A stretch of 64,000 nucleotides of DNA from Myxococcota bacterium (GCA_039030075.1 JBCCEW010000027.1:1-64000), one strand, 5' to 3'; shown: positions 4,676 through 19,939, numbered from the stretch's first letter. Translations and numbers: made by a program. The notes: a model not told the origin generated them from the letters alone.

Positions 4676-4751
4676 GCGCGAGTAGCTCAGTTGGTAGAGC
4701 ATCAGCTTCCCAAGCTGAGGGTCGCCGGTTCGAACCCGGTCTCGCGCTCCA
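4676..4751 (+). tRNA. tRNA-Gly (anticodon CCC)
   Basis: A 76-nt cloverleaf with a 7-bp acceptor stem (GCGCGAG/CTCGCGC), D arm GCTC...GAGC, anticodon stem TCAGC/GCTGA with loop TTCCCAA (anticodon CCC), T arm GCCGG-TTCGAAC-CCGGT, discriminator T and encoded CCA. Its 3' part (from 4702) forms the left attachment site of the mobile element, and the gene is kept intact by the insertion. Confidence 0.95.
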
Positions 4752-4752
4752 G
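4702..4752 (+). repeat. attL: 51-bp direct repeat within tRNA-Gly
   Basis: Bases 4702-4752 (anticodon stem to one base past CCA) are identical to 19889-19939. The sequences diverge on both sides (a/t-c and g/a-g). A tyrosine integrase gene lies just inside. This is the classic arrangement of an element integrated in the 3' half of a tRNA gene. Confidence 0.95.
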
Positions 4753-4760
4753 AGATTCCG

Positions 4761-4803
4761 AAGGCCTCGTAGTCGAAAACCGGCGCGGGGCCTTTGCTTT
4801 TTC
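4761..4803 (+). terminator. Terminator supplied by the element downstream of tRNA-Gly
   Basis: AAGGCC (4761-4766) pairs with GGCCTT (4789-4794), and the hairpin is followed by TTTGCTTTTT. It lies inside the element and replaces the tRNA gene's original terminator, which now sits at 19948-19986 beyond attR. Confidence 0.6.
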
Positions 4804-4864
4804 GTGCAGCGTCGCCGCTTGCGACACGGGTCGAGCGACTTCCTGCCACTGGGAAACGCGGAAC

Positions 4865-4883
4865 TGACGGCCTAGTGACGGCC
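4865..4883 (+). repeat. Paired TGACGGCC repeats at left end (possible integrase arm sites)
   Basis: TGACGGCC occurs at 4865-4872 and 4876-4883, start-to-start 11 bp, with the second copy running into the integrase stop codon. A matching pair lies near the right end (19778-19797) and an inverted pair at 9685-9703. Such tandem short repeats near both ends are what arm-type integrase sites look like. Confidence 0.5.
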
Positions 4884-6043
4884 TACGCGCCCGAGTCATC
4901 CGCGCCCGCGATCATGGCATCGAGCCCCGCCATCGCGGTCTCCAGGTTCTCGGGTATGTGCTTCGCGTAGATGTCGAGGGTGGTGCTCGCACGCGAGTGA
5001 CCCAGCATCGCCTGCGTGGTCTTGAGATCGGTCCCACCCCCGAGTACGAGCGTTGCCGCGGTGTGGCGAAGGGGCTGGAGCGACACCTTCTTCCCCTGCA
5101 ACCCGGCAGCCGCCACCACCGGCCGCAGGTTGCGTCGGCCCCAGTTCGAGAAGCGAATCGGCGTGCCGGCACCAGACGTGAAGACAAGCACCGTCGGATG
5201 CGGAGACGCGGGCAAGCTCTCGCGGTGCCGATTCACGGCCTGTCTGGCCCAGGACGGCAGCGGTACCGTCCTGCGTGACATCTTGGTCTTCAGGTCGGCG
5301 ATGTACTGGCGCCCCTGAGCGGTCTCCTTGAGCGCCTGGGCCAAACGGACACGGCCAGCGCCCAGGTCGATATCGCCCCAGCGCAGGCCGAACACCTCGC
5401 CGCGCCGAAGACTACACAGCCCCAACGCCAACGCAGCCTCGACCCACGGCGGCTGGGTGTCCCTGGCGACCGCGAGCAGGTGTTGAGCCTCCTGCGGAGT
5501 CAGGTGGGCGATCTCCGGCCTGGGGAGCTTCGGGCGGTCAACATGAGCAGTTGGGTTCGCCGCGAGCTTGCCCCTGCGCACTGCGAGCTCGAACACCCGA
5601 GCAGCCAGGTCCAACACCATCCGGCGCGTTCGCAGACCAACGCCAGCATCCCGCATGTCGTTCTTCAACGACTCGATATGGGCGTCCGTCACGCGCTTGA
5701 TCTGCATTCCTCCCAACCTGGGAACAAGGTGCTTGTTCAGCGTGCTTCTGTACGTGCCCAGTGTCGTGGGCTCAACAGCCTCCTCCTTTGAGGACAGGTA
5801 CAGCTGCACGAGGTCCGAGACAGTCATGAGTCCGGGGTCAGCGATGCGTCCACCGCTATCGAGGGTCTCCAGTGCCTTGCGAAGCGCTCGGTTCGCCTCT
5901 GTCTTCGTCTTGAAGTAGCCGAGCGTCCGACGACGCCGCTTGCCGCTGCCATCCCGGCCAAGATCGATCTGGGCCTGGTAGGGCCGACGGCGCCCTTCCC
6001 TCTTGGTGACGCTGCCGTCTCCTTGATCTCGTCGTTTTGCCAC
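4883..6043 (-). CDS. int: Tyrosine-recombinase integrase
   Basis: A 386-aa site-specific recombinase expected to catalyse insertion and excision at tRNA-Gly. It has an N-terminal arm-binding region (basic, residues 1-60), a SAM-like core-binding domain (about 73-160) and a catalytic domain (about 180-375). Catalytic positions seen: R213 (SLRRGE), K254, R326 (QPLRHTAAT), H349 (LGHS) and Y359 (TLDIYAKH). The first position of the usual HxxR box is Q323 rather than His. The GTG start is chosen because AGGAGG lies 8 bases upstream; it overlaps the stop of the upstream gene by one base (TAGTG), so the two are translationally coupled. Confidence 0.93.
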   Translation of the reverse strand: MAKRRDQGDGSVTKREGRRRPYQAQIDLGRDGSGKRRRRTLGYFKTKTEANRALRKALETLDSGGRIADPGLMTVSDLVQLYLSSKEEAVEPTTLGTYRSTLNKHLVPRLGGMQIKRVTDAHIESLKNDMRDAGVGLRTRRMVLDLAARVFELAVRRGKLAANPTAHVDRPKLPRPEIAHLTPQEAQHLLAVARDTQPPWVEAALALGLCSLRRGEVFGLRWGDIDLGAGRVRLAQALKETAQGRQYIADLKTKMSRRTVPLPSWARQAVNRHRESLPASPHPTVLVFTSGAGTPIRFSNWGRRNLRPVVAAAGLQGKKVSLQPLRHTAATLVLGGGTDLKTTQAMLGHSRASTTLDIYAKHIPENLETAMAGLDAMIAGADDSGA

Positions 6044-7020
6044 TACTTTGTCCTCCTGTTCTTTCCCTTGAGCCACCCTTGAACGGTCTTCGTATCCGAG
6101 TCGAGCTTCTTGGCGATCTTCGCCGGCGTCATACCCCTCTGCGCCAGCTTCACAGCCTCTCGCTTCCTCTCGCGATACGCCGCCATCCGGCACTTTTCGG
6201 AGCAGTACTCCCTGCTCCGGCGCGTCTTGCGACGGTTGTCCACGATGAAAACGTCGTTGCATACGAGGCATCGCTTCTCGACACGCTCAATGTCGAGCGA
6301 GTAGGCGAACTCCAACCAAATCAGCCCCAGTAGAGACCGAGCCTGATCTCTCATCTCAACGCGATCGCCATAGAGAACGGGCCGACGGAGCACGGCCGGA
6401 TCAAACGATTCTGTTTCGGGATGTAGCGAGCGACGCCGACCTCCGAACTGGTCGGTTACGCGTGCTACGACCAGTTGCCGCAACCGACGACTCGCTAGCT
6501 CCTTGCTGTCAAACCGCTCAGCAGACGAACGAGGGAGTAGGTTCGCCCAGACTTCCCCACCGCTCTCGGTCAATCCGACGCGCGAGCCCAACGAAGCCGA
6601 TGCTGTCTTGTGCCACCACGACAGCCTTTCGTTCATCTCCTTGAGTGTCCCGCTCTCCGCGGCCTCCCATGAGCTCATTGCGAGGCGCAGGTCCAGAGAT
6701 TCAGAGATCCAACTGTCAACTCGCTCCGCCCAGGGTTGCTCGCCCTCGGCGTCGTGGACTGTGACCGGGACTCGCTCCCAGATTCCGAGCATCCCGAACT
6801 CGTCCGCGAACGCCTGAACCGCGCCGAGAGCCTCTTCGCCTTGATAGGCGAACAGACTTGAGAATCGACGGTGCAGAGGTGGACCCCCCTCTGCGGGCAG
6901 GAAGAGATCCTCTTCGTCGCCGGTCCACCAGACGAGCCATGCCCCAGCTGGGGCTTCGTGAATGCCGTAGCCACCTGGGTCGCGGCGCCAATTCAGGACC
7001 ACGCGGTCCGCAAGCTCCAC
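6043..7020 (-). CDS. Zinc-finger/HTH protein coupled to the integrase, unknown function
   Basis: A 325-aa protein, first gene of the integrase operon. The N-terminal two thirds have no family I can name. Near residues 255-290 a zinc knuckle is readable: CLVCNDVF ... YCSEKCRMAAYRERK (CxxC and CxxxC pairs), resembling the zinc finger of CGNR/ABATE-type regulators. The last 45 residues form a basic HTH-like segment (GMTPAKIAKKLDSDTKTVQGWLK). The likely role is DNA binding, perhaps directing integrase or regulating the early region; this is inference. GTG start with GGAGGGGA upstream. It diverges from the excisionase-like gene at 7174. Confidence 0.7.
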   Translation of the reverse strand: MELADRVVLNWRRDPGGYGIHEAPAGAWLVWWTGDEEDLFLPAEGGPPLHRRFSSLFAYQGEEALGAVQAFADEFGMLGIWERVPVTVHDAEGEQPWAERVDSWISESLDLRLAMSSWEAAESGTLKEMNERLSWWHKTASASLGSRVGLTESGGEVWANLLPRSSAERFDSKELASRRLRQLVVARVTDQFGGRRRSLHPETESFDPAVLRRPVLYGDRVEMRDQARSLLGLIWLEFAYSLDIERVEKRCLVCNDVFIVDNRRKTRRSREYCSEKCRMAAYRERKREAVKLAQRGMTPAKIAKKLDSDTKTVQGWLKGKNRRTK

Positions 7021-7038
7021 CGGCTCCCCTCCATCGGT

Positions 7039-7062
7039 TGTTACGCGATGAACACGATAACA
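7039..7062. promoter_or_regulatory. Inverted repeat in the divergent early promoter region of the element
   Basis: TGTTA (7039-7043) and TAACA (7058-7062) are symmetric about 7050.5, beside an AT-rich run (ATATTTTTTA) that stands out in this GC-rich region and could hold a -10 element. The site lies between the leftward int operon and the rightward excisionase-like gene. The same half-site recurs in the palindrome at 13069-13090. Confidence 0.45.
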
Positions 7063-7173
7063 TATTTTTTACCGTGGTTGCGAATTTCGAGTCCCGACGG
7101 CACATTCCTCACTGCGGAACGCGGGAATACACACAGGTGGCCGAGCGTGTCCGCCTGGAACTCAGGAGGCCCT

Positions 7174-7404
7174 ATGCCGGATCGAGATCCTTCAAGCCCT
7201 CAAATCAATGCGGCGCACCAGGGCGACGACGAGTGGGAGGACGGTGCTCTCGGCGGCAGCAACCGCTGGGAGTTCATCGGGACCAGCAGATCGCGTTGGT
7301 ACGAGCTCGTCCGGGAGGGCGAACTTGTGGTCGCGCGCAACGGAAACCGACTGGTGTCTTCGGTCAAGAGTTCGAAGGCGTACCTGGCTCGGAACCGGGT
7401 CTGA
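7174..7404 (+). CDS. Excisionase/AlpA-like small DNA-binding protein
   Basis: A 76-aa protein beginning MPDRDPSSPQ with AGGAGG five bases before the ATG. The C-terminal half (GSNRWEFIGTSRSRWYELVREGELVVARNGNRLVSSV, described here as about residues 25-62) has the layout of MerR/Xis-type winged helices found in AlpA and excisionases: a helix-turn-helix followed by a short beta wing. Placed divergently from int and upstream of the replication gene, it is the likely directionality or early regulatory factor of the element. Lack of a close named relative keeps confidence moderate. Confidence 0.65.
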   Translation: MPDRDPSSPQINAAHQGDDEWEDGALGGSNRWEFIGTSRSRWYELVREGELVVARNGNRLVSSVKSSKAYLARNRV

Positions 7405-7479
7405 CCCCAACCCCTCAACGCAGAAGCGCCCCGCCCCCCGTATTCAGCGACGAGAGGGCCGAGGCGCTGGAGCGAAGCG

Positions 7480-9408
7480 ATGAGTTTATCGCGATGGACC
7501 CGAGAGCACCCCTGCCCCATCTGCAGCGGGCACGACAAGCTCCCACGCGGTCACGGAGAGCGCTGCCACGGGTACCTCTCTTCCGATTCCCTGTACGCCT
7601 ACTGCGCGCGAGAGGAACTCGCCGGCAGCCTGACGCCGCAGGGGGAGTCTGGATGCTACCCGCACCGTCTGGAGGGCAAGTGCCGCTGCGGCGAGACGCA
7701 CGGCATTGCCAAGTGCGCCTCGAAGCCAAACGGCGTGGCACGTAAGCGCGCGTTCTCCCCGAGTTCGGCAAATCGGTCCCATGGGTCCGTCTTGCGCGAC
7801 CTCGGCCCTGAGGTCGCCTCGTACCAGTACCAGGATGAGGACGGGCAGCCGCTCTTCGAAGTCGTGCGCTTCGAGGCCCCTGATGGCGGGAAGGAGTTCC
7901 GCCAGCGCGCCCCGGACGGCACCTGGAGCGTCCAGAGCATCCGGAAGGTGCCCTTCCACCTACCCGAGCTCCTCCGGGCCGTGGCGGCCGGCGACTCGAT
8001 CTACGTTGTCGAAGGCGAGAAGGACGTGCTCGCGGTCGAGGCAGCCGACTGCGCCGCCACCTGCAACCCCGGCGGCGCCGGGAAGTGGCAGGACGATTGG
8101 GCTCCGCTCTTCGACGGCGCCCACGTGATCGTCGTCCAGGACAAGGACGATCCCGGCGAGAAGCACGCCCGGAAGGTGTACCACTCACTAAAGAACGTAG
8201 TGGCCAGCATCCGTGTCGTGGAGGCTGCCAGCGGGAAGGACGCCGCGGACCACTTGAAGGCGGGGGAGCGGATCGACAGCTTGGTGGAAGTCAGCCTCGA
8301 GACCCAGGAAGACAGGACGGGGCGACTCAGGATCCTCACAGCCACCGAGATCGAGCAGGACCGGGCACCACGGGAGATCGTCGAACGCCTGATCCACGAG
8401 GACTCCCTGCACTCCATCGTTGCCCCTGCGAAGGGTGGGAAATCGTTCCTCGCTCTTCAGCTGGGACTTGCGGTTTCCCATGGTGAGCCCTTTCTCGGGC
8501 AGCGCACCCGCCAGGTACCGGTGCTCTATGTGTCCACTGAGCCTGGGATGAGCGCGGCGGTGCTCAGAGGGCGGCTCGCAGCTATCGCGCGGGATGTCGG
8601 ACTCCCCGCACCAGACTTCGACCGCGGGCTAAGGGTGGCTGCATCCACGACCGAGCGCGGTGCGCTCGACCTGGACCTGACAACGGATGAAGGCCGCGCC
8701 GAGCTGCGCGACGCAGTTCGAGAATCCGGGGCCGGCTTGGTGGTGCTGGACACCTTCTACAGCATGTCGGGGGACAAGGACATGATCGACAACCTCCAGA
8801 TGAAGGAGGTCTACCTCGAACTCTCGCGCCTGGGGAAGAACGAGAGATTCGCGAACGTCCTCCTCGACCATTCCGGGAAGTCCGCAGCCGAGGGGTTGCC
8901 AGTGAGCTTGTCCGCGATCGGCGCGTCTTCGAAGGGCGGCGCGTGCAACACCATCATTCAGCTGAACCGGCAAGGTGGCGCCTGGGAGATGAAGGTGGCC
9001 TCACACTTCGGCACCTGGGATGACCCGCTCGTCTTCACCCGCCCCATGTGTGACGGGAAGCCGGGCTTTGGCGTCGTGCCGACTAGCCACGCCGAAACCA
9101 ACGACATCGACATCTCCTGGCTCCAGGAGCTCTTCGAGAGCCATGGCGAACGAAGCGACGCGTACGAGGGCTGTCTCCACTTCGGCTCCGCTACCAAGCT
9201 CAAAGCAGCCCTTGCGAAGAACGGCATCACCAGCACCCCGAACCAGGAGGCCATCGACGCGGACATTCGACGGCAGTTCTGCTTCTGGCCAACCACCTCA
9301 CCCATGAACCGAGATGGGAAGCCGATCGAGGTCCTAGACGGATCCCGGAGCGCTCGAATCTATGTCTGGAGGTGGGGGGAAACGACCTCCACCACCGCCC
9401 CTATATAG
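7480..9408 (+). CDS. Toprim + RecA-like primase-helicase (element replication protein)
   Basis: A 642-aa protein with an N-terminal zinc-binding part (C12, C15, C29/H30, C42, then CRC near 68-70), a Toprim domain (VEGEKD at 177-182; DKDDPG at 221-226) and a RecA/AAA-type ATPase with Walker A APAKGGKS (315-322) and Walker B LVVLDTF near 415-421. This layout is that of phage and satellite primase-helicases which prime and unwind the element's own origin. The C-terminal 150 residues may bind DNA. GGAG precedes the ATG. A 10-bp inverted repeat (9385-9394/9422-9431) spans the gene's end. Confidence 0.85.
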   Translation: MSLSRWTREHPCPICSGHDKLPRGHGERCHGYLSSDSLYAYCAREELAGSLTPQGESGCYPHRLEGKCRCGETHGIAKCASKPNGVARKRAFSPSSANRSHGSVLRDLGPEVASYQYQDEDGQPLFEVVRFEAPDGGKEFRQRAPDGTWSVQSIRKVPFHLPELLRAVAAGDSIYVVEGEKDVLAVEAADCAATCNPGGAGKWQDDWAPLFDGAHVIVVQDKDDPGEKHARKVYHSLKNVVASIRVVEAASGKDAADHLKAGERIDSLVEVSLETQEDRTGRLRILTATEIEQDRAPREIVERLIHEDSLHSIVAPAKGGKSFLALQLGLAVSHGEPFLGQRTRQVPVLYVSTEPGMSAAVLRGRLAAIARDVGLPAPDFDRGLRVAASTTERGALDLDLTTDEGRAELRDAVRESGAGLVVLDTFYSMSGDKDMIDNLQMKEVYLELSRLGKNERFANVLLDHSGKSAAEGLPVSLSAIGASSKGGACNTIIQLNRQGGAWEMKVASHFGTWDDPLVFTRPMCDGKPGFGVVPTSHAETNDIDISWLQELFESHGERSDAYEGCLHFGSATKLKAALAKNGITSTPNQEAIDADIRRQFCFWPTTSPMNRDGKPIEVLDGSRSARIYVWRWGETTSTTAPI

Positions 9409-9431
9409 GAGGTCATGGTGATGGTGGAGGT
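9385..9431. repeat. Inverted repeat spanning the end of the primase gene
   Basis: ACCTCCACCA (9385-9394) is the exact reverse complement of TGGTGGAGGT (9422-9431), with a 27-base loop that holds CTATATAGGAGG. It could form a transcript hairpin over the stop codon or mark an origin-proximal site. No T-tract follows. Confidence 0.4.
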
Positions 9432-9909: not shown

Positions 9910-10260
9910 TTGAGCTTGAACAACAACGAACTCTTCATCGGAGCCTGCGTCCGGAACGACCACGAGCGGGCCGCTCTGTTGTTCCTAGAGGAGGCGTTTG
10001 CGGCGGAAGACGACGCTTTCTCCAAGACTCAGGAACTCGCGTACATCGACTATTGGTGTGACTACGACACCGATCCGCTCGGGCTCGTGATTGTCGAGCG
10101 CACCCAGGATTGGCTACGAGCCTACTACCCGGACAGCCTGGGCTTCATGGCACCGGGGAAGCAGTTGCCCTTTGCGCAAGCCATCATCGCGCGGTTCAGG
10201 GAGATCTGGCCCGCGCGTGCGAGTGCGCCGTGCGACGATTCAACCTCGCCGGTGAATTAG
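9910..10260 (+). CDS. Hypothetical protein
   Basis: A 116-aa acidic protein starting LSLNNNELFIGACVRNDHE from a TTG that has GGGAG 9 bases upstream; the open frame extends further up but that part has no protein-like character. It contains several aromatic and acidic residues (YIDYWCDYDTDP) and no motif I can name. It overlaps the next gene by about 30 bases, suggesting co-translation with the HTH protein. Confidence 0.5.
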   Translation: MSLNNNELFIGACVRNDHERAALLFLEEAFAAEDDAFSKTQELAYIDYWCDYDTDPLGLVIVERTQDWLRAYYPDSLGFMAPGKQLPFAQAIIARFREIWPARASAPCDDSTSPVN

Positions 10261-10574
10261 TCCAGGACCCGGACCTCTCCCGCCAGTTCACGGGCGCGTG
10301 TGTTCGGGCCTGGCGGGAGTCCACGGGCCTCTCCAGGGCTCGTCTGGCCGCCATCCTCGGCTGCTATGAGAGCACTGTCCAGAGATGGGAAGCCAGTGCC
10401 GTGGTGGCGCCCCGGGTCGTGTTCCAGCTGGCGGGCACGGAAAGACTCGTCCGACGCCTGAACTACCAGCGGCGGGAGGCCAAGCACTCCCGGGACTACC
10501 GGCGTCGTCGCGACGTTTGCGAAGACCGGATCAAACGCGGTTTGAAATCAGAGCCGGAAGTGCCCCTCTGGTAG
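10230..10574 (+). CDS. Small helix-turn-helix protein
   Basis: About 114 aa from a GTG at 10230 (start uncertain; the frame is open from 10110). The segment ACVRAWRESTGLSRARLA followed by AILGCYESTVQRWEAS is a Cro/XRE-type HTH, with a basic Arg/Lys-rich C-terminus (YQRREAKHSRDYRRRRD). It is likely a DNA-binding regulator of the element. No ribosome-binding site is close to the GTG, so translation may be coupled to the preceding gene, which it overlaps. Confidence 0.55.
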   Translation: MRRFNLAGELVQDPDLSRQFTGACVRAWRESTGLSRARLAAILGCYESTVQRWEASAVVAPRVVFQLAGTERLVRRLNYQRREAKHSRDYRRRRDVCEDRIKRGLKSEPEVPLW

Positions 10575-10688: not shown

Positions 10689-11396
10689 ATGGCGACCGAA
10701 TTTGGAGATGTATCCGTAGCAGGACCCCAACAGCCCCAGGTCCCGATCACAGGCTTGCCGCCGCAGGTCTTGCAGCAGATCGCCAACCAGGCGAGTCAGC
10801 AAGCGGCGATTCAGTCGGCCAAGACGCACTATGTCTCGTTCTCTGCCGAGGTGGTGCCGCACACGATCGAATCGTTGCTCGCACTGTGCGCCGACCTGGT
10901 GAACAAGCATCAGCCGGACGAGATCTACCTCGCCCTCAATACCCCTGGCGGCCAGGTCGCCTGCGGGATCGGTGCGTACAACATGCTCCGGGCACTGCCG
11001 GTGAAGATCATCACGCACAACGTGGGTGCGGTTGATTCGATCGGAAACGTGATCTTCCTAGCGGGTGACCAGCGCTATTGCTGCTCGAACGCGGGTTTCA
11101 TGTTCCATGGCGTCGGATTCGACATCAATGGACAGAACCTGCGCCTGGAGCGGAAGCTACTCGGAGAGCGACTCGACGCTTTGCAGGCAGACGAGCGCAA
11201 GATCGCCAGCATCATCTCCGATCGGACCGAGATGACGGACGATCAAGTCGAAGAGTCCTTCCTGAACCAGGTCACCCGCGATCCGGACTTCGCAAAATCC
11301 AACGGTATTGTTCACGAAGTCCGAGACCTGGACATTCCGAAAGGCGCACCCATTTACCAGCTTGTATTCCAGCGGCAGGGCGTCGTTGTCCGGTAG
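10689..11396 (+). CDS. ClpP-like serine peptidase
   Basis: A 235-aa protein of the ClpP/crotonase fold. NTPGGQVACGIGAYNML (84-100) matches the ClpP substrate-groove motif; S117 in GAVDSIGNVIFLAG and H140 in NAGFMFHG take the places of the catalytic Ser and His, and D198 in TRDPDF is the likely third residue. A 45-residue Gln-rich N-terminus is extra. No Clp ATPase is nearby. In phages and satellites ClpP-like proteins act as head-maturation proteases, but they lie in the head operon, whereas this one stands alone. A role in regulation or defence is equally possible. GAGGAA precedes the ATG; the frame upstream to 10590 is not needed. Confidence 0.8.
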   Translation: MATEFGDVSVAGPQQPQVPITGLPPQVLQQIANQASQQAAIQSAKTHYVSFSAEVVPHTIESLLALCADLVNKHQPDEIYLALNTPGGQVACGIGAYNMLRALPVKIITHNVGAVDSIGNVIFLAGDQRYCCSNAGFMFHGVGFDINGQNLRLERKLLGERLDALQADERKIASIISDRTEMTDDQVEESFLNQVTRDPDFAKSNGIVHEVRDLDIPKGAPIYQLVFQRQGVVVR

Positions 11397-11599: not shown

Positions 11600-12103
11600 C
11601 TACTCCAGCGCCCTCAGCACCTCGGTGCTGTTTTCCGCCGTCTTGCGGGCGAGGTCCTCGAACCCTGGGTTGGCGGCCAGCTGACGCACTCGCTCCTGGA
11701 CCGCGACTAGTTCTGCCCGCTGCACCGGGAGTCGCTCTCGGAGGCTGAGGAGCCTGCGGAGCCGCTGTGTGCGGCCCTTGGCAGTGAGCACCTTGCCCTT
11801 GCTGCGGCCACTGCGCGCGCGCATCGGTTCACCGCTCACGAACTCGGCCTCAATCCGCGCGGCCTCCTTCTCCGCGTCTCGGATCCGCGCTCGAAGCCCC
11901 TGAGCGTGGGACTCCAACAGGGACCGCTCCGAGGTGGCCTCGGGCAGGATCGCGTCCAGTCGGTGCCACCGCGCCACCATGGCGGCGAGCTGGTCAGCGG
12001 GTCGTTCCAGCACCCGGCGTTGGTGGTCCTCGTCAAGGCCCAGGACAACCTGGGCGGCCTTCTCGCGCAACTGCATCTGTTCTGCTTCGTTCAGCATCAG
12101 CAT
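11600..12103 (-). CDS. Hypothetical coiled-coil protein
   Basis: A 167-aa, highly charged, almost entirely helical protein (MLNEAEQMQLREKAAQVV ... ARIRDAEKEAARIEAEF ... RLRRLLSLRERL) with heptad-like spacing. GGAGATC stands just before the ATG. It is the last gene of a leftward group with 12120-12554 and 12554-13042. No function is recognisable; the helical, repetitive nature would suit a structural or scaffold-type role. Confidence 0.6.
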   Translation of the reverse strand: MLMLNEAEQMQLREKAAQVVLGLDEDHQRRVLERPADQLAAMVARWHRLDAILPEATSERSLLESHAQGLRARIRDAEKEAARIEAEFVSGEPMRARSGRSKGKVLTAKGRTQRLRRLLSLRERLPVQRAELVAVQERVRQLAANPGFEDLARKTAENSTEVLRALE

Positions 12104-12119: not shown

Positions 12120-12554
12120 TTAGTTCAGAGTTTCAGTGCTCGGCTCAGCGAGCCTGCCACCCTGCCGGGCCAGAATGGCGGCCTCCTCTGAGAGCCGGAC
12201 GAAGGTACGCATGCTTCCGCCCTGGAGTGAGTCCGTGTAATCGAGGAAAGCGGGTAGACGCAGGAGTTCGGCGTAGACCTGCATCGCCTTCCAGTCGGCT
12301 CTCGGGCGAACCAACCTCTCAGGTTTGCCCGTGTCGATGATGCGATGGCACGTCCAAAGGAGCTCGTTCGCGCTGAACGACATGCTGACCCATTCCTTGT
12401 GGGAGGGATCGTCACTAGGAATGTGCGTAAGGGCGTCGTGGATGAGCTCGAAGGTCTCGTAGTGGTACTCGCGGAGCCATCGACGGGCGCGCTTCGGCGT
12501 CAGCTTGTTCCAGGGGACGGGAACGAAATCGATGTGGAATCTGTCGATACCCAT
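12120..12554 (-). CDS. Hypothetical protein, coupled to its upstream neighbour
   Basis: A 144-aa protein starting MGIDRFHIDFVPVPWNKL, with GGAGG upstream. Its ATG shares one base with the stop of the gene before it (TGATG). The sequence has the helical, aromatic-rich look of an alpha-helical bundle (RWLREYHYETFELIHDALTH). The opening motif xIDFVPVPWNK resembles the opening of the neighbouring 162-aa protein (TNVIPVPEWKNRGEAL...), so the two may be diverged relatives. Confidence 0.65.
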   Translation of the reverse strand: MGIDRFHIDFVPVPWNKLTPKRARRWLREYHYETFELIHDALTHIPSDDPSHKEWVSMSFSANELLWTCHRIIDTGKPERLVRPRADWKAMQVYAELLRLPAFLDYTDSLQGGSMRTFVRLSEEAAILARQGGRLAEPSTETLN

Positions 12555-13042
12555 CACCGCCCCTCCGACCGATAGGTCTCGGCGCGATCCGACCTCATCT
12601 CGCGCGACCACCAATGAGAGGCTTCGGCCTTGAGCTGGGTCGCCGCATTCTCCAGCGCCGCGGTGAGAAGCTCGTAGGTCCTGGGCCAGAGCTGCGCCCC
12701 CTTGTCGCCGTACCCGAAGCCGTCGTCCGTCTTGTCGCGAAGCTCTCGGATGCTGCGGGCGATCTCCTGGGTCTGCTCCGAGGCGTGCACCGAATCTACG
12801 TCGAGTCGGCAGCGCGGGTGTTCGAGGAACTCCGGCACCGCCTGCAAGACCATGGCGAAGTCCTCCAGGAGCATCTCGGGAACGTAGACGCCGGCGTGCA
12901 CGAGGTCCGCGAGCACGAGCGTCCAGTCCCGGAAATCGCCGCGGAGCCAATCGAGGGCCTCGCCGCGGTTCTTCCACTCGGGAACCGGAATGACGTTGGT
13001 GGGGATCGATACGATGGGGCCGGGCTGGACTGTGTCGGACAT
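12554..13042 (-). CDS. Hypothetical protein, first gene of a leftward operon
   Basis: A 162-aa acidic helical protein (MSDTVQPGPIVSIPTNVIPV ...). GGAG lies 8 bases before the ATG. Its N-terminus shares the pattern IPVPxWxxRxEAxxWLR with the next protein (FVPVPWNKLTPKRARRWLRE), followed in both by a helical region. The palindrome at 13069-13090 lies just upstream and is probably its operator. Function unknown. Confidence 0.65.
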   Translation of the reverse strand: MSDTVQPGPIVSIPTNVIPVPEWKNRGEALDWLRGDFRDWTLVLADLVHAGVYVPEMLLEDFAMVLQAVPEFLEHPRCRLDVDSVHASEQTQEIARSIRELRDKTDDGFGYGDKGAQLWPRTYELLTAALENAATQLKAEASHWWSREMRSDRAETYRSEGR

Positions 13043-13068
13043 GGGTGGACTCCAGTGGTGGGAGGCAT

Positions 13069-13126: not shown

Positions 13127-13134
13127 TTTCCCGG

Positions 13135-13335: not shown

Positions 13336-13339
13336 CCAG

Positions 13340-14350
13340 ATGCGCCTCCACTATGTCGGTTCGTTCCAGCGAGGGCACCACCACCCGTCTGAAAGCGCGG
13401 CCGGAGAAGCATGGGGCCAGCTCTCACGGTACGGAGCGGTCAACTTTCTATCAGCCTTCAGCGGAAATATCGGCGGCGAAGATCCCGACCGTCCGCGAAT
13501 AACGTCGTATGCGGCCGTACGGATCCGTCAGGGGGTTGAGTTTCGGAGTTTTTCGCAAGACGGCTCGCTTCTGACTGCGCCGCTCTCCTTGTACTACGCC
13601 GCGTTGAACGCCGCACGCGCGTGCCTCGCGCTCGAAACGGGAACCGAATCTGGGAAGAGCCACGGGCTCACGTTTCGCCTGGGCGAAAGCCTGATGGATT
13701 GCCATGCGATCATCGCCAAAGGTACGTACGCAGATCTCCTTGCCGCGTTCGACGTGTCGTTCGAGGTCGGAGACGAAATCTCGTTGCGAGATGCCCTATC
13801 GGCGATTCCAGAGATAGCTCACGAGTTCAACTCCCCGGACCGGGGATTGACGAACGTGTACTCGGTCTCGGTCAAAGCGGCACGAGGCGAACTAACGCTT
13901 CGCGTGAACGACTCCTACCGGCCTCTTGAGGATTTTGCAGCCAGCTGGCGAGATTGGTTTCCGATCCTCGCAACGATCTGCGCGTACAACGAGAACGAAC
14001 GCAGCCTGGCCCTGGTCGATGCAGGGTCAATCGCTGGCCCGGAAACCGTTGAAGAGTTCTGCAACGCTCACCTTGAGACCAGCCTCACGTGGCTCAATGC
14101 TCCAATCTGGTGGCTTATTCGACACCCCGTATCGAAGCTGGAATTGCCACGGATCGCCTACTACTTCGTTGCCCTCTTCATCCTGGGAAGCGTCGTCCGC
14201 TATGAACCCGAGATGATGATCGAAGCTGCATCACCTGATGACGAGCTCAACTGGTTCTTGCAGCGATTCCTTGCAGCGGCAGATCGGCATGTGCCACAGC
14301 TGCTCGTCTCGCGGCTCCGCGGACACAACGTGTTTTTCCCCTCGGTCTAG
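13340..14350 (+). CDS. YaaC-like protein of unknown function
   Basis: A 336-aa protein with GGAG 9 bases before the ATG. The order of motifs - W-x-L-x-x-Y near residue 25, an SYAAVRIRQG segment, TAPLSLYYAALNAARACLAL (about 80-98), then SHGLTFRL - is that of the YaaC-like family and of other HEPN-type helical proteins in which PLxxYYxxxNxxRA packs against a His-Gly-Leu turn. No R-x4-6-H motif is seen. A C-terminal hydrophobic stretch (IAYYFVALFILGSVVRY) may contact the membrane. Base composition is lower in GC than the chromosome. Possibly cargo of the element. Confidence 0.55.
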   Translation: MRLHYVGSFQRGHHHPSESAAGEAWGQLSRYGAVNFLSAFSGNIGGEDPDRPRITSYAAVRIRQGVEFRSFSQDGSLLTAPLSLYYAALNAARACLALETGTESGKSHGLTFRLGESLMDCHAIIAKGTYADLLAAFDVSFEVGDEISLRDALSAIPEIAHEFNSPDRGLTNVYSVSVKAARGELTLRVNDSYRPLEDFAASWRDWFPILATICAYNENERSLALVDAGSIAGPETVEEFCNAHLETSLTWLNAPIWWLIRHPVSKLELPRIAYYFVALFILGSVVRYEPEMMIEAASPDDELNWFLQRFLAAADRHVPQLLVSRLRGHNVFFPSV

Positions 14351-14360
14351 CCGTGCTCGC

Positions 14361-15245
14361 CTACGCTCCCGACCCGCGAGCTCTGCGCTGCGCCGCCAAC
14401 TCACGGAGGAGCGATTCGACGGTCGCCCCAACGCGTGGCACGCGTTGTTCAACGAAGATCGGATCGTCGATCTCCGGCAACGCCCTAGGTAACGCTCCCA
14501 GAATCCGCGCCTGGGCCTGGAGGACGCTTAAGGTCATGACGACGAAGAGGCCGGGGTCATCCGGGTCGAACTCTTGCGCCTTGATCTGAATAGCCTGGTG
14601 AAACTTCCCGCCCGCAACCTCGTGCTTTACGTCAAGTCCGAAGGCGATTCCCAGGAATCGAGAATGCATTGCAAACGAAGACGCCCGCTCGTAGGCATCG
14701 TGTAGCCCGAAGTCTCTCGCGGCCGACCGAACCGCGTGTTGGTGTGTCTGGAAGAACGCGCGGCCGTCGGCTTCGGTTGAGATGTCCTGCCACTCCGACG
14801 CGATCTCAGGGCTCTCACTCATGAGGTAACAAAGCGAAAGAGACTCCACCTGCAGTCTTGTGTAGGCAAACGGGGCGGAGAGTCGAAAGCGAAGCAGATC
14901 CGCGAACGCGGCCGAGTTCAATACTGCGATCTTGGCAAGGAGAGTGCCTCGTGATTCGCGGCTCCTGAAAGCGTGCAGCGCATCCCTCACCCGGGGGTTT
15001 GTGCCCGCATGAGCCGGGAGCTCGCCGTCGGATTCCAGGCCTAGCTCCTCTACAAGCTCTTGAATGGGTTCGTAGTGCCGGTCGCTGAAGCTCTGGGTAA
15101 GCACGCGCAACGCGGTGTCATAGAGACCGCATACGTCATTGAGAGCCGACCAGAAACCGGGACAATGATCGCTGAGCACGCTCTTGCAAATCGGGACGTT
15201 CTCATTGTCCGCTTGCAGAAGCTCATCGATAGTCGGGCTAAGCAT
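14361..15245 (-). CDS. Hypothetical helical protein, element cargo
   Basis: A 294-aa protein, almost all helical, converging on the YaaC-like gene. The central part (TRLQVESLSLCYLMSESPEIASEWQDI in two pieces, about residues 130-157) resembles the conserved helix of DUF5677-type proteins, in which an Arg and Glu on one helix face a Leu-rich partner. I cannot assign a function. The start has only a weak ribosome-binding site. It heads a leftward series with the genes at 15279, 15771, 16428 and 16938 that are each separated by tens of bases rather than overlapping. Confidence 0.5.
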   Translation of the reverse strand: MLSPTIDELLQADNENVPICKSVLSDHCPGFWSALNDVCGLYDTALRVLTQSFSDRHYEPIQELVEELGLESDGELPAHAGTNPRVRDALHAFRSRESRGTLLAKIAVLNSAAFADLLRFRLSAPFAYTRLQVESLSLCYLMSESPEIASEWQDISTEADGRAFFQTHQHAVRSAARDFGLHDAYERASSFAMHSRFLGIAFGLDVKHEVAGGKFHQAIQIKAQEFDPDDPGLFVVMTLSVLQAQARILGALPRALPEIDDPIFVEQRVPRVGATVESLLRELAAQRRARGSGA

Positions 15246-15278
15246 GTGTTCGTACCCGCCGTTTGACCGCGCGACGAC

Positions 15279-15737
15279 CTATCGAAGCTCGTCTCGGATC
15301 CGTAAGGCCTCCTGAACCACATCCCGTTTGTCGAGGTTCGTGTCAGGGTCTCCTCCCGAAACTGCGTTCGAGAGGTACACCAAGCCCTCCCGCGCGATGG
15401 CGATATTCGAAAGGCTCGGAACTATCCCTAGGTACGCCCAAACGCGATAGTGCGGAACGAGATGTGCGCGTGCTGCGAGCTGCGTGGCTCTCTGCCGCAG
15501 GACGAGAGAGGATTCCATCTCCCGCTCAGGAGAGTGCGCGCCCGGATTGGCGAAGACATTCGAGTGGAACACGAGGTCATCGGCAACTTCACCGATCAGC
15601 ATTCGCAGACCCTGAACGGGCTCCAGAACAACTTTGAGTAGTACTTGTCCCACAACGAATACTGCGACTCCTCCGAGTACTGTGAATGCCATCGTGACGG
15701 CCGCCTGCTGAAACTCAACCACAGAGCCCTCCTCCAC
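15279..15737 (-). CDS. Single-pass membrane protein of unknown function
   Basis: A 152-aa protein with one N-terminal membrane helix (AVTMAFTVLGGVAVFVVGQVL), then a cytoplasmic helical part with conserved-looking features: PVQGLRMLIGEVADDL, FHSNVFANP, VLRQRATQLAARA and a closing LGIVPSLSNIAIAREGLVYL-SN. This pattern (one TM, Arg-rich helix, P-S-x-x-N and L-S-N) is shared by a widespread family with no assigned function. GTG start with GGGAG seven bases upstream. Confidence 0.6.
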   Translation of the reverse strand: MEEGSVVEFQQAAVTMAFTVLGGVAVFVVGQVLLKVVLEPVQGLRMLIGEVADDLVFHSNVFANPGAHSPEREMESSLVLRQRATQLAARAHLVPHYRVWAYLGIVPSLSNIAIAREGLVYLSNAVSGGDPDTNLDKRDVVQEALRIRDELR

Positions 15738-15770
15738 CCCAAGCTCCCAGGGGCCGCTTAGTCACAGAAC

Positions 15771-16340
15771 TTAGTCGCTGCGCGATCGCACTCCGAACTC
15801 AGCGAGGAACGGCGCAAGATCTTCTGGTACCGAAGTGAAGTGCTTTGAGGAACGCTCGCGGAAACGCTCGAACAGAACGTCGTCAATTGCGATGCGCTTC
15901 AAGTAGCGCCTCACGGCCTCCACGAACGCCGATACAAGCTCCTCGACCCGCACAGCTACGAACTGGTCGGGAGCGAGGGCCTTCATTGCATTGGAAATCG
16001 CGTCGAAATCAGACTGACCATACGAGTAGCCTATGCTCCGAACGCCGAACTTCGCTCCAACCCGCGAATCCGGTGTCAGCGTATGGAGCAAACCGCATCT
16101 AGCTGCATAGAGCTCAAGAGCGGTGCACTCCAGCGCGCTATCGGGGAGCAGATAGCTATCGACCCATCTCGTGAACGACTCGCGCACCGACTGATCCGCC
16201 GGGGCGGTTAGCCAGCTCAGCGCGTCAATCCCGGTGTAAAGCAAAATCAGGGCCGGGATGGGTAGGCCTTCCGCAACGCAGCGCTCGATTCCCTGACGGA
16301 GCTGAACAAGCGTTCGCGATGTTCCCTCGGCGTGCTCCAT
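15771..16340 (-). CDS. HEPN-type protein (candidate ribonuclease)
   Basis: A 189-aa helical protein. LILLYTGIDALSWL (32-45), FTRWVDSYLLP (56-66) and ELYAARCGLLHTLTPDS (76-92) are the conserved blocks of a HEPN-like family, with the R-x4-H motif at R81-H86 that forms the active site in HEPN RNases of toxin-antitoxin and abortive-infection systems. The gene stands alone between two membrane-protein genes; no MNT nucleotidyltransferase partner is adjacent. Its place in the cargo region suggests a defence or toxin role, which is inference. Confidence 0.65.
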   Translation of the reverse strand: MEHAEGTSRTLVQLRQGIERCVAEGLPIPALILLYTGIDALSWLTAPADQSVRESFTRWVDSYLLPDSALECTALELYAARCGLLHTLTPDSRVGAKFGVRSIGYSYGQSDFDAISNAMKALAPDQFVAVRVEELVSAFVEAVRRYLKRIAIDDVLFERFRERSSKHFTSVPEDLAPFLAEFGVRSRSD

Positions 16341-16427
16341 TCATCTATCCGGTGAGATTCAGCATCATCTTGTCTGGTGCAGCTCGCAGCAGCGGGCACG
16401 GTTCTTCCGAACACACGGACTCGCCAA

Positions 16428-16856
16428 CTAGGCGCGTCTTTCGGGCGCCCGCGATCTCATATAGAGCTTGCCGAGCGAAGTCAGCTGAACTTCCGCTGCG
16501 TCAGCCAAGTAGGCATTCCTTGGAACAGTCATCACCAAGCCAAAGTTCCGCAGCGGACGAATCAGCTTTCGCTGGCTTGATGAAGGCTTCTCTGGATACT
16601 GAATGGCGCCCGAGGCGTGGATCTCGTCTAGGTACGCCTGCTCCGAGTCAGTGAGCGAGCCGCCCACTTGCTCCTGGAGTGCTCCTTCCAGCTCGGGAAG
16701 GCTCGTCTCGATCTTCTGGCCGAAGAGAGAAAGCGTGAGCTTCGAGCCACCGAGCAAGGCGGGAAGACTACCGCGAACCACCACGACTCCGATCAGTGCA
16801 ACTACAGGCCAAGCGAGAACTTTCAGTAACTTGATCGTCTCATCTAAAGACAACAT
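16428..16856 (-). CDS. Membrane-anchored protein with C-terminal winged-helix-like part
   Basis: A 142-aa protein with one N-terminal membrane helix (VLAWPVVALIGVVVV), a short linker with polar beta-strand character (KLTLSLFGQKIET) and a C-terminal segment (SQRKLIRPLRNFGLVMTVPRN ... VQLTSLGKLYM) reminiscent of a small winged helix. The layout suggests a membrane sensor or anchor that pairs with another cargo protein. No family recognised and the ribosome-binding site is weak. Confidence 0.5.
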   Translation of the reverse strand: MLSLDETIKLLKVLAWPVVALIGVVVVRGSLPALLGGSKLTLSLFGQKIETSLPELEGALQEQVGGSLTDSEQAYLDEIHASGAIQYPEKPSSSQRKLIRPLRNFGLVMTVPRNAYLADAAEVQLTSLGKLYMRSRAPERRA

Positions 16857-16937
16857 GACCGGAAAGATGCCCCCGTATTCAGTGCCTCACATGGCTGATC
16901 TGGCCCCAGGATGCTCCGTACCGCTCAACCCGCGGAC

Positions 16938-17309
16938 CTAGAGGAAGCTCCAGCGTGCTGAGAGGTAGGAGGAACACAGGATCATTGCATTCGCAACGAG
17001 GTACCTATTGTAGGGACCTCGCTTCTCCGTAGGAGCGTACTGTGCACGGTGAACTGTCTTGAACAGTAGCCATCCACCGATCGCGCCAACTTGAGAAGAC
17101 ACGATGAGCATCGGGTACGCCAGCATCTCGAAGATACCGAGAACTAGCGGTAGCCAACTCGAAGTGCGAAACGCCGTGGGCCATGGCACTTGAGTGCGAG
17201 AGGCCAGTTCGTGGGAAGTGACCGCTCGGACAGCGAGGGGGCTAGCAGCCGCCAACGCTAGGTACACGAGCCAGCAGTCAGGGCTCCTCGTAAGAAGCGT
17301 CTCCACCAT
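16938..17309 (-). CDS. Small multi-pass membrane protein
   Basis: A 123-aa protein with about three hydrophobic segments: CWLVYLALAAASPLAVRAV, WLPLVLGIFEMLAYPMLIV and a C-terminal LVANAMILCSSYL. AAGGAG lies three bases before the ATG. The central YNRYLVANA motif after a basic loop (EKRGPYNRY) has no family I can name. It is followed by about 175 bases without a gene before the phage-like operon. Confidence 0.5.
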   Translation of the reverse strand: MVETLLTRSPDCWLVYLALAAASPLAVRAVTSHELASRTQVPWPTAFRTSSWLPLVLGIFEMLAYPMLIVSSQVGAIGGWLLFKTVHRAQYAPTEKRGPYNRYLVANAMILCSSYLSARWSFL

Positions 17310-17485
17310 CAGCTCCTTGGCTCATCCGAAGTAGCCCCTGAATGTGTAGGGAGAGATCCGCTCATCCAGCGGGACCAGCTTCCGACGAAACGGCACAAAA
17401 GGGCAACACAGAAAGGTCTCTGGGACAGCCCCGAACAGAGGAATGCGCAAGCTCGATTGCCCTCCCGACACTACCAATCGGGCGA

Positions 17486-18028
17486 CTATGCGATGTTGCC
17501 TCCCAGCACGCTCGGCCCACCCGTCGCGGGAAGGCGTCGACCGGTTCCCGTCGTGAGCCTCGTCGAGCTGGAAGACGACCGGGGCACGGAGTTGATGAAG
17601 CCACTCGCTGAGCGCACCCCACCGGAGACGGAGAGAAGCGCCCCCTCGATGGCCTGGTTGCGAGCAGCGCGCTTGAAGGCACGGCCCTCTGCCACCTGTT
17701 GGGCTGCCAGCCGTCGCCCGCGCTCACGGAGGCGCTGAACAGCGAACTGCTCGCGGAAGACGCTCTCCGCCAGCTGGCCCAGGGGCGTGCCCGTATCGAC
17801 CCGCACGCCGGCACCGGCGAACGAGGACCGAATGGTCCCGCGTTCGTAGAGCCCCTCCAGTCTGCGGAGGAACACCTCCTGCTCGGCGTCCTGCCGAATC
17901 TGAATCGCGTTCTTCCGCGCTGTGCGCCGAGCGCGAACGCCCGCGCGACGCAGCTCCACGGCATTGAGGATCGATCCTGCCCCCTGCCCAGCCAGGCCGA
18001 GGGCGAGTAGTGCGGCGGCTGCTGCCAT
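17486..18028 (-). CDS. Phage internal virion/structural-like protein
   Basis: A 180-aa Ala/Arg-rich protein. The N-terminal segment LLALGLAGQGAGSILNAVE, the middle FAGAGVRVDTGTPLGQLAES and the Ala-rich GRAFKRAARNQAIEGALLSVSGG match a common layout of internal virion or head-associated proteins of short-tailed phages (hydrophobic start, a SGVRVxTGSPLxxL-type box, then a repeated A-R-x2-A region). It is the last gene of a tightly overlapping four-gene operon (TAATG junction with the gene before). Identification rests on pattern only. Confidence 0.55.
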   Translation of the reverse strand: MAAAAALLALGLAGQGAGSILNAVELRRAGVRARRTARKNAIQIRQDAEQEVFLRRLEGLYERGTIRSSFAGAGVRVDTGTPLGQLAESVFREQFAVQRLRERGRRLAAQQVAEGRAFKRAARNQAIEGALLSVSGGVRSASGFINSVPRSSSSSTRLTTGTGRRLPATGGPSVLGGNIA

Positions 18029-18363
18029 TATCCGAGACTCCTATTCGAGAGAAGGGGTGTTCCGAGGGCATTGCGGCGGTTCTGCTCCGCCAGGTTCCCG
18101 CCGGTGCCCAAGAGCGAGGTTCGCCCTTGCGAGCTACGGACCCGGAACTGGGTCAGCGCCGCCTTCCGACGCTCTCGCTCCACCTCCTCCGGGTCTGCCT
18201 CGTCTTCGGGAACGGGTGGGTTCCGGCCTGTCGTATCGCCGAGATTCTTCCGGGCGATGCCGCGCAACGCGGGGTCGAGCAGCGGGCCAGCCAGCAAGCT
18301 GGTGACGGCGCTGCCCGTGCTGTCCCGCAGCGTGCGGCGAACGACTTTCTTGAAGGTGCCCAT
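18028..18363 (-). CDS. Small phage-like hypothetical protein
   Basis: A 111-aa protein starting MGTFKKVVRRTLRDS after AAGGAGG. A hydrophobic segment (VTSLLAGPLLDP) is followed by an acidic/proline linker (NPPVPEDEADPEEVERERRK) and an Arg/Gly/Ser tail (RVRSSQGRTSLLGTGGN ... GTPLLSN) of a kind often seen in small head-associated proteins. Start and stop overlap its neighbours by one base each (TGATG, TAATG), so the four genes are translated as a coupled unit. Confidence 0.5.
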   Translation of the reverse strand: MGTFKKVVRRTLRDSTGSAVTSLLAGPLLDPALRGIARKNLGDTTGRNPPVPEDEADPEEVERERRKAALTQFRVRSSQGRTSLLGTGGNLAEQNRRNALGTPLLSNRSLG

Positions 18364-18932
18364 CAGGCCGCCTCCTTCGCTGTTTGGGGAAGGAGCAAGT
18401 GCCATGCGCCGGGCTTGTTGAGCGCCACCAACGTGCCCGAGCCGGGGGGCAATGCGTGTGGTCCGAAAGCGCAATGCAGCCGACCGGTGTGGCCGCTCAG
18501 CGTGTACCGGCCGCCGACGCGGACGCAGTTGACGAAAAACCGGGCTTCGATCCAGTCATCGGATTCCGGATTGCCGATGCCAACCCCCTTGTTCCCAGGC
18601 ACGAGCGGCGAGTGGGCGTCATCGAGGGCGCCGTGACCGCCGACCAGCACCCCGAGCGGCGTGATGAGGTTCACGCGGGGCGACCGCCGTGCGTTCTCAG
18701 CCGTGCCGCGAGGCACCACGAGCTCTACCCGTACTGAGGCGCCGCCCTCCTCCGCGAACAGTCCACCATCGCTCGCTTGTAGGGCCGTGAGCCCCATCAA
18801 CTTGGCGGAACCACCACACACGCTCGCATTGGTTGTGAGCGTGTAGTCCATGGTCAGCTCGTGGTTCGCGTAGTTGATCGCCTGTTTGACGACAGGTGTC
18901 GGAATCGCAATCTCGACGCGTTGGGTGTTCAT
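18363..18932 (-). CDS. Phage-like hypothetical protein, beta-rich
   Basis: A 189-aa protein, N-terminus helical/polar (VEIAIPTPVVKQAINYANHEL) then a long beta-rich part with Gly/Val stretches (VRVELVVPRGT, NLITPLGVLVGGHG, GRYTLSGHTGRLHC). It lies where a capsid or decoration protein would follow a scaffold gene, but at 189 aa it is shorter than an HK97-type major capsid protein and I see no coat-protein signature. Its start overlaps the stop of the scaffold-like gene (TGATG). Confidence 0.5.
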   Translation of the reverse strand: MNTQRVEIAIPTPVVKQAINYANHELTMDYTLTTNASVCGGSAKLMGLTALQASDGGLFAEEGGASVRVELVVPRGTAENARRSPRVNLITPLGVLVGGHGALDDAHSPLVPGNKGVGIGNPESDDWIEARFFVNCVRVGGRYTLSGHTGRLHCAFGPHALPPGSGTLVALNKPGAWHLLLPQTAKEAA

Positions 18933-19615
18933 CAGCTCTCCTTCTTTGCCGTCACGCCGTGGTGCGTTCGGCGACGGTGCAGCTCATCGAGCTCGGCACG
19001 GCGCTTTGCGTGGTCGGGGTGCCCGCCGTCGAGCAGCTCCCGCTTATGCTTTTCCCAGAAGGTATTGATCGCGTCCGCTTCAACCGCTTCACCTTCACCG
19101 AGACGCGCCACTCGCTCTTGCTCGGCGCGAGCCTCGGAACGGGCCACGATCCGGTGCAGCCCGTCCAGCTGGCGCCGTCGCAGATCCTGCAGCGGGTGAC
19201 CGTTCGAGTAGAGCTCCCGGTCATGAGCAAGACGGAAGCGGCCTATTTCGTCGCGAGCCTGTGCGGAAGTCAACGACAGTGGGTCGACGCCGGTCTCCAG
19301 GCGATAGCTCTCGAACTCACTCGCTTGCTGCGCGAGTCGACGAATGACGTGCGGGTTGTTGCCGCGCGTTCCGAACTCGGGATCGGGCTCGTTCACGAGC
19401 GCGTCGAACTCGCTACCGAAAACGCGCTGGGCGAAGACCGACGCCGACTCGACGGCCTCGTGAGCGGGCTGACTCGGGTTGGCTGCTTCGAGCTGGTCGA
19501 GCGCGAGGCTGCGGGGATCGGGCGGCGACGCCGGGACGGGCAGGGAAACAGTCGCCGAGGTGGCGTTTTCCGACGCCGCCGCCGAATCAGATTCCTGGGT
19601 GAGGATGGATTCCAT
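18932..19615 (-). CDS. Scaffold-like phage protein
   Basis: A 227-aa acidic, helical protein, first gene of the operon, with AGGAGG nine bases before the ATG. After a low-complexity Ala/Pro N-terminus, two copies of a helix-turn motif are seen: RELYSNGHPLQDLRRRQLDGL and RELLDGGHPDHAKRRAELDEL (each about 20 residues). The pattern N/D-G-x-HPxH-x-x2-R-x3-L-x-x-L is typical of the C-terminal helices of phage scaffolding proteins that bind coat subunits. Upstream only 270 bases remain before attR, so the rest of a head module (terminase, portal) is missing here. Confidence 0.5.
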   Translation of the reverse strand: MESILTQESDSAAASENATSATVSLPVPASPPDPRSLALDQLEAANPSQPAHEAVESASVFAQRVFGSEFDALVNEPDPEFGTRGNNPHVIRRLAQQASEFESYRLETGVDPLSLTSAQARDEIGRFRLAHDRELYSNGHPLQDLRRRQLDGLHRIVARSEARAEQERVARLGEGEAVEADAINTFWEKHKRELLDGGHPDHAKRRAELDELHRRRTHHGVTAKKES

Positions 19616-19777
19616 GGCTGAGAGCCTCCTGGTGCTTGGAGGAACTCCCACGAGGCCATCGGCGGTCGCGCGACCGTATCGAGAATCTCACCTCTATGTT
19701 TCCCCCGAGATGACATTCTACACCACGAGGATCAGGAATTGGGCCGCAATCTCGCCCTACTCATTCGTGTGTTCTTT

Positions 19778-19797
19778 TGACGGCCCGTTTGACGGCC
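19778..19797 (+). repeat. Paired TGACGGCC repeats at right end (possible integrase arm sites)
   Basis: TGACGGCC at 19778-19785 and 19790-19797 (start-to-start 12 bp), about 92 bp inside attR. Same 8-mer as the pair at 4865-4883, in the same orientation. It is the counterpart expected for arm-type binding sites. Confidence 0.5.
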
Positions 19798-19888
19798 AAC
19801 GGGGCGCACACCGCCAGACACTGATGGATGGTCGGGCCCGCAAGCCACCGAAGTCACACGCACCCGGACAACCGTGGACGCACCCCTT

Positions 19889-19939
19889 TCAGCTTCCCAA
19901 GCTGAGGGTCGCCGGTTCGAACCCGGTCTCGCGCTCCAG
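19889..19939 (+). repeat. attR: 51-bp copy of the tRNA-Gly 3' end
   Basis: Identical to 4702-4752. It lacks the 5' half of the tRNA (acceptor 5' strand and D arm), so it is not a functional tRNA gene. Chromosomal sequence resumes after 19939 with the tRNA gene's original terminator. Confidence 0.95.

Follow-up and report, generated by a model that had tools for sequence, protein, structure and literature searches.

A tRNA-Gly element with an apparently rebuilt podovirus-type scaffold gene, a probable phage satellite in a Myxococcota bacterium

What is an element that carries its own integrase, primase and phage-head-like genes, and in which no terminase, portal or tail gene can be recognised—a parasite of phages, or the relic of one? 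The question is raised by a 15-kb insertion at tRNA-Gly(CCC) in a 64-kb stretch of a Myxococcota genome (GCA_039030075.1, JBCCEW010000027.1:1-64000), here called the window, whose coordinates are used throughout; the assembly comprises 5.76 Mb in 55 contigs, and relatives used for comparison are given as genome (G) and contig (C) numbers. We consider it rather probable that the insertion is an integrative phage satellite that takes the particles of a podovirus-type helper, with a shortened scaffold protein (the mini-scaffold) altering capsid assembly. It is a probable phage parasite because integration and replication genes are present, shell, packaging and tail genes are absent, and a podovirus scaffold has been shortened and doubled.

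The case begins with an operon of four minus-strand genes, running from 19615 down to 17486:

18932-19615, minus strand: mini-scaffold, 227 residues, first gene; rank 1 of 151 with the scaffold profile, six-frame search E 1.7e-9
18363-18932, minus strand: 189-residue protein, second gene; no match in profile and sequence searches
18028-18363, minus strand: small protein with a C-terminal GR-S-LL motif, third gene; motif level, not significant
17486-18028, minus strand: internal virion protein (phrog_418 family; internal virion protein B, or IVP-B, type), last gene; rank 1 of 151 with its profile, six-frame search E 3.1e-8

All four frames are intact, their starts are preceded by purine-rich Shine-Dalgarno-like sequences, and adjacent stop and start codons touch or overlap. 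The operon genes were ranked among 151 background proteins with profiles drawn from podovirus-type phages (HTVC010P, VP5, SPN1S, Ab31, K228, Greip and two Manatee Spring phages) and from prophages in related genomes (G075:C2, G097:C23, G050:C260 and G012:C31). The scaffold profile placed 18932-19615 first (87.8%, E 3.3e-6; runner-up E 0.021), and the internal virion protein profile placed 17486-18028 first (88.8%, E 2.5e-6; runner-up E 0.027); the phrog_418 match of the latter (2.6e-4) is independent of these custom profiles. Both genes are clearly phage-derived.

The scaffold match is confined to the C-terminal region, which has a G-N-(D/H)-P stretch and a helix-turn-helix whose turn reads HP; nothing in the mini-scaffold corresponds to the first ~190 residues of normal scaffolds. 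The helix-turn-helix occurs twice in the mini-scaffold: the C-terminus of the G097 scaffold gave two separate tblastn matches, one per copy. A single-sequence model (predicted local distance difference test score, pLDDT, 72) is all-helical with short turns at both GHP sites; Foldseek with this model returned nothing significant. In well-studied podovirus scaffolds the C-terminal region is the part that binds the coat protein. The doubling of the C-terminal motif and the loss of the N-terminal part suggest that the protein was rebuilt, not that it decayed.

The two middle genes are harder to place. The product of 18028-18363 ends in GRTSLLGTGG...LG, which can be compared, short of significance, with the GRSSTLLTG...KTLLG of a small gene near podovirus portals; we did not adopt an identity as a small portal-associated (gp7.3-like) protein from the motif alone. 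No relative of 18363-18932 was found in Pfam, PHROGs, viral contigs or phage records, and its single-sequence model was useless (pLDDT 31). Close relatives of the head genes were likewise absent from viral contigs and phage records. Weak order-level matches to 17486-18028 (in G055) and to 18363-18932 (in G068) were judged to be chance; the former contains stops, and the latter lies among acyl-CoA dehydrogenase genes. The original prediction, made from the DNA alone, spoke of four coupled phage-head-like genes: the coupling holds, and phage origin is clear for two of them, with a third at motif level and the fourth without a match.

The same prediction recognised no terminase, portal or tail gene and proposed profile searches for capsid, portal and terminase. 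Pfam and PHROGs find no terminase, portal, capsid or tail gene in the element; tblastn with 379 podovirus proteins found no remnants of portal, capsid, tail or terminase genes, and six-frame translations of the element set against family profiles gave no meaningful match to decoration, coat, portal or tail-tube proteins. The podovirus-type phages read have the small GR-type gene ahead of portal, scaffold, coat, tail tube and IVP-B; in the element the order is scaffold, the gene without a match, the small GR-type gene and IVP-B, with nothing left between them. The prediction's description of a truncated head operon is not supported, because none of its genes is broken, they are condensed and differently ordered, and no remnants of the missing genes are present.

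The insertion itself is delimited by the following features:

4676-4751, plus strand: tRNA-Gly(CCC), the integration target (ARAGORN, Rfam)
4702-4752, plus strand: left attachment site (attL), overlapping the tRNA-Gly 3' end; exact 51-bp repeat
~4761-4801, plus strand: replacement terminator supplied by the element, a hairpin and T-run just 3' of the tRNA, by sequence reading (AAGGCC...GGCCTTTGCTTTTT)
19889-19939, plus strand: right attachment site (attR), second copy of the 51-bp repeat; exact
19945-19980, plus strand: probable native tRNA-Gly terminator, displaced; hairpin with a 16-bp stem directly past the right repeat

As first proposed, both attachment (att) sites are visible as a perfect repeat, identical in two copies and with no further occurrence in the window. 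The unit between the repeats measures 15,187 bp, and its guanine-cytosine content is 58-66%, against 68-70% outside. A similar hairpin stands immediately after tRNA-Gly in G002 (93% over 45 bp), G007 and G006 (84% over 38 bp), with the caveat that G002 and G006 also carry integrase genes just past it. The hairpin at 19945-19980 would most simply be the native tRNA terminator, moved 15 kb by the insertion. Integration at tRNA-Gly(CCC) is well supported.

A conserved full prophage at this site in relatives, or the lack of any empty site, was what the original prediction had said would tell against it. Among the relatives examined no full prophage was seen at tRNA-Gly(CCC); they have empty sites or other elements there. 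The site is free of integrases in one genome of the same genus (G001, 9 kb right of the tRNA) and in two of the same family (G007, with none adjoining the tRNA, and G008, in which the same left-hand desaturase gene and the tRNA are kept at 73% DNA identity and no integrase lies within the 2.3 kb available). Different integrases occupy it in G006 and G002, and in G051:C56, of the same order, a 13.2-kb element lies at tRNA-Gly(CCC) with a third att copy that marks tandem occupation—the site is one used repeatedly by elements. At that locus (G051:C56 46485-64084) the 13.2-kb element is followed in tandem arrangement by a remnant of 4.4 kb, which carries a second integrase fragment, 82% identical. 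As a separate observation, a TPR gene and ATPase operon (window 32223-36811) lies ~12 kb from tRNA-Gly here, in convergent orientation, and directly upstream of tRNA-Gly in G002, G007, G014 and G016; we read this displacement as an old rearrangement near the site.

Next to attL lies an early region with the genes for integration, regulation and replication (HTH, helix-turn-helix):

4883-6043, minus strand: tyrosine integrase (Phage_integrase PF00589 1.4e-16, phrog_1 1.1e-66); intact
6043-7020, minus strand: HTH or putative zinc-finger gene (HTH_23 1.5e-4), its stop codon overlapping the integrase start codon
7174-7404, plus strand: small HTH protein, possibly excisionase- or AlpA-like (HTH_17, E 0.07, weak match)
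7480-9408, plus strand: Toprim/AAA_25 primase-helicase (AAA_25 1.4e-26, Toprim, phrog_239 2.5e-29); intact
9910-10260, plus strand: 116-residue protein without assigned function; codon-model gene call
10110-10574, plus strand: HTH regulator, start at 10110 or 10230 (HTH_31 2e-5)
10689-11396, plus strand: ClpP-like peptidase, stand-alone (PF00574 5.4e-17)

Here the predicted integrase, primase-helicase and ClpP-like peptidase were all recovered, and the integrase, primase and HTH genes are intact, as had been said of the primase and regulators; support for the proposed excisionase-like HTH is weak. The product of 6043-7020 has three weak matches in the order. The ClpP gene also matches PHROGs head proteases (1.2e-14), and its nearest solved structure is a 183-residue 'Clp protease' (9uxt, 2.3e-22). 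We considered a head-protease role and found it unsupported: head proteases are no closer to the protein than other ClpPs are, and its distances to phage and plasmid ClpPs are much the same. Such a role is not shown because the gene sits outside the head operon, in the early region beside a regulator.

The primase finds matches in 8 of the 61 genomes searched, the window's own counted; its relatives are absent from viral contigs, and in genome contigs they are limited to the G048 element and one other metagenome-assembled genome. The five primase sequences that were aligned had diverged too far to allow a pattern scan. Four primase loci in relatives have tRNA att repeats at both ends with integrase and primase inside:

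G051:C16, 26.3 kb: at tRNA-Cys, att repeats
G051:C56, 13.2 kb: at tRNA-Gly, att repeats
G056:C10, 9.4 kb: at tRNA-Pro, att repeats
G048:C70, 13 kb: at tRNA-Arg, a weaker 23-bp repeat

The element is integrated between att repeats with its own intact integrase and a displaced terminator, it lacks the full virion and packaging gene set, its early genes are intact, and it shares integrase and primase with other 9-26-kb tRNA-borne elements of the order. A satellite-type element is supported by the tRNA att sites, the integrase-HTH-primase core, the 15-kb size, the absence of virion and packaging genes and the cut-down helper-type scaffold.

Several of the loci met in these comparisons deserve mention of their own. 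Four elements of 9.0-9.4 kb in the same order (G056:C10 369471-378870, G075:C2 473070-482221, G022:C44 57866-66945 and G035:C1 75977-85222) each have tRNA att repeats of 39-55 bp, an integrase, an HTH gene, a primase/helicase and an HK97 capsid gene; portal, large terminase and tail genes were not recognised in them. The capsid gene looks like a protease-capsid fusion in two of the four, the G056 element also has TerS, and all four look like capsid-forming satellites. The tRNA-Cys element (G051:C16 34439-60738) is a 26-kb composite: it holds two integrases and an IS30-like transposase, and its YaaC-like gene is a relative of the one in the window. A 13-kb contig of the same family (G005:C96 1-12954) holds an integrase, a large terminase (phrog_2, 2.8e-26) and a distantly related primase; we read it as a prophage or larger satellite cut at the contig ends.

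If the element depends on a helper, where might one be found? The window assembly contains no HK97 capsid, no podovirus-type portal and no phrog_2 terminase; some genomes are known to hold satellites without a possible resident helper (PMC11389934). Suitable helpers exist nearby, since podovirus-type prophages occur in the same order and the same family (G012:C31).

Where the element belongs among described satellites is less simple. The original prediction likened it to the phage-inducible chromosomal islands (PICIs), whose traits include phage-dependent induction and a conserved organisation of the replication origin (PMC6092414): the satellite type is supported, and PICI membership is not shown. 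Its integrase and primase are clear, and the candidate regulators are the weak HTH_17 match and the HTH_31 protein. We do not file it as a PICI, a capsid-forming PICI (cf-PICI) or a phage-inducible chromosomal minimalist island (PICMI), because, respectively, Pfam and PHROGs give no terS or cpm match (the scaffold-like gene being an analogue and not a cpmB homologue), the element has no major capsid protein of its own or coat remnant, and it sits at tRNA-Gly instead of beside fis, with a scaffold-like gene. The cf-PICIs and the ~9-kb capsid-bearing elements of the same order are likewise tRNA-borne with an integrase, HTH and primase core; they encode an HK97-type capsid, whereas this element encodes none. 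The PICMIs of Vibrionaceae share a core of integrase with overlapping gene, HTH/AlpA-type gene and primase, but are smaller, lie next to fis and have no capsid-remodelling genes (PMC10803314).

By analogy, EcCIMP1, a PICI of E. coli MP1 with the helper vB_EcoP_Kapi1, is a close precedent for the mechanism we propose: it has an integrase, regulator and primase, no identifiable capsid or terminase genes, and genes resembling the helper's DNA-transfer and head-morphogenesis proteins (PMC11773190). In contrast to the present element, which lies in an unrelated uncultured lineage and encodes an IVP-B-type protein beside a C-terminal scaffold protein, EcCIMP1 is experimentally mobile, and no scaffold-like gene has been described in it (PMC11773190). 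Satellite proteins related to or acting as capsid scaffolds are also known: CpmB and Rcm of the Staphylococcus aureus pathogenicity islands (SaPIs), which have motifs in common with the scaffold of the helper and presumably compete with that scaffold (PMC12409344), P4 Sid, and TcaP of the phage-inducible chromosomal island-like elements (PLEs; PMC10945586). The window protein differs from CpmB and Rcm in its origin, a family of podovirus scaffolds, and in the doubling of its C-terminal motif, and its redirecting role is inferred; Sid and TcaP are external scaffolds, unlike this scaffold-derived fragment (PMC10945586). Podovirus-type phages and prophages (HTVC010P, VP5, SPN1S, Ab31, G012:C31, G075:C2 and G097:C23) have an internal virion protein and a scaffold C-terminal region homologous to those of the element, which differs from them in gene order and in having no portal, coat, tail tube or terminase.

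The remainder of the element consists of three small genes and of cargo genes:

11600-12097, minus strand: small gene without family match; codon-model gene call
12120-12554, minus strand: small gene without family match, overlapping its neighbour; codon-model gene call
12554-13042, minus strand: small gene without family match; codon-model gene call
13340-14350, plus strand: YaaC-like cargo gene (PF14175 3.8e-24)
14361-17309, minus strand: five cargo genes (14361, 15279, 15771, 16428, 16938), no function assigned

The YaaC-like gene is common to this element and the G051:C16 element (39% identity, E 5e-45). Two of the five cargo genes match PHROGs families (15279-15737, phrog_7512, 4.9e-11; 15771-16340, phrog_12390, 3e-5), and in the latter an R-x4-H motif (RCGLLH) presumably recalls HEPN nucleases, with no family match to support this. 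PADLOC gave no defence genes.

The chief alternative, which we regard as unlikely, is a defective and rearranged prophage: a podovirus-type temperate phage that has lost portal, coat, tail and terminase, with the rest drifting to loss or domesticated. The integrase and primase are of phage type, as are two virion genes, relatives do contain podovirus-type prophages, and transfer of the element has not been observed. Such a history would be expected to leave remnants of a colinear structural operon, but no portal, coat, tail-tube or terminase fragments are found, all frames are intact with four genes tightly overlapping, the order is unlike that of the phages read, and the scaffold has been re-organised instead of broken. 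A separate and quite improbable reading would have the phage-derived proteins, the mini-scaffold above all, kept to poison the assembly of incoming podovirus-type phages, in a non-transferring defence island with ClpP, the YaaC-like protein and other cargo. A C-terminal scaffold fragment would indeed be expected to be a dominant-negative inhibitor, and a large share of the element is cargo of no known function; yet a pure defence island would not need the integrase, att sites and primase-helicase that are retained, PADLOC detects no defence gene, and it is hard to see what an internal virion protein would contribute to poisoning. That the phage likeness is superficial, the scaffold and virion matches being chance similarities of helical or low-complexity proteins in an ordinary integrative island, we hold to be very improbable: much of the element has no known function, one operon gene is without any relatives and the Foldseek search was not significant, but two genes of one compact operon each rank first of 151 against profiles drawn from one phage group, with E-values four orders of magnitude below the next, and the phrog_418 match is independent.

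Some points weigh against a satellite. One of the four operon genes has no identity and another is placed at motif level, the supposed excisionase is a weak match, and no TerS or packaging-specificity gene was found in Pfam or PHROGs. A sibling with the same four-gene operon was not found in the searches made, and conservation under selection is therefore unproven. Excision, packaging and a helper have not been observed; we infer dependence on a helper and excision, together with replication when a helper infects, redirection of its capsids, and packaging.

As a satellite, the element might work as follows. Its tyrosine integrase would recombine at the 3' end of tRNA-Gly(CCC), giving the attL, attR and new tRNA terminator that are seen in the window. 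Infection by, or induction of, a short-tailed helper would switch on the HTH proteins, the element would excise, and the primase-helicase would replicate it. Lacking its own portal, coat, terminase and tail, it would be packaged in helper particles; the mini-scaffold may compete with the helper scaffold and redirect capsid assembly, by analogy with SaPI CpmB, while the internal virion protein would be taken into the particle to help deliver the DNA, possibly along with the products of the other two operon genes. The YaaC-like gene and the rest of the cargo may benefit the host or the element.

More tentatively, and at somewhat less than an even chance, the element may represent a satellite lineage of this uncultured order that parasitises podovirus-type phages, redirecting their capsids with a doubled C-terminal scaffold motif and supplying its own internal virion protein. 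In the literature considered here, the capsid-redirecting satellite proteins come from few helper systems (SaPI, P4 and PLE). If true, this would be an independent case of capsid redirection, by a mini-scaffold that derives from a widespread family of podovirus scaffolds and follows a clear logic in its sequence—the N-terminal part lost, the C-terminal motif doubled—and it would show satellite parasitism in an uncultured lineage. It would also serve as a warning that operons labelled 'truncated prophage' may be purpose-built.

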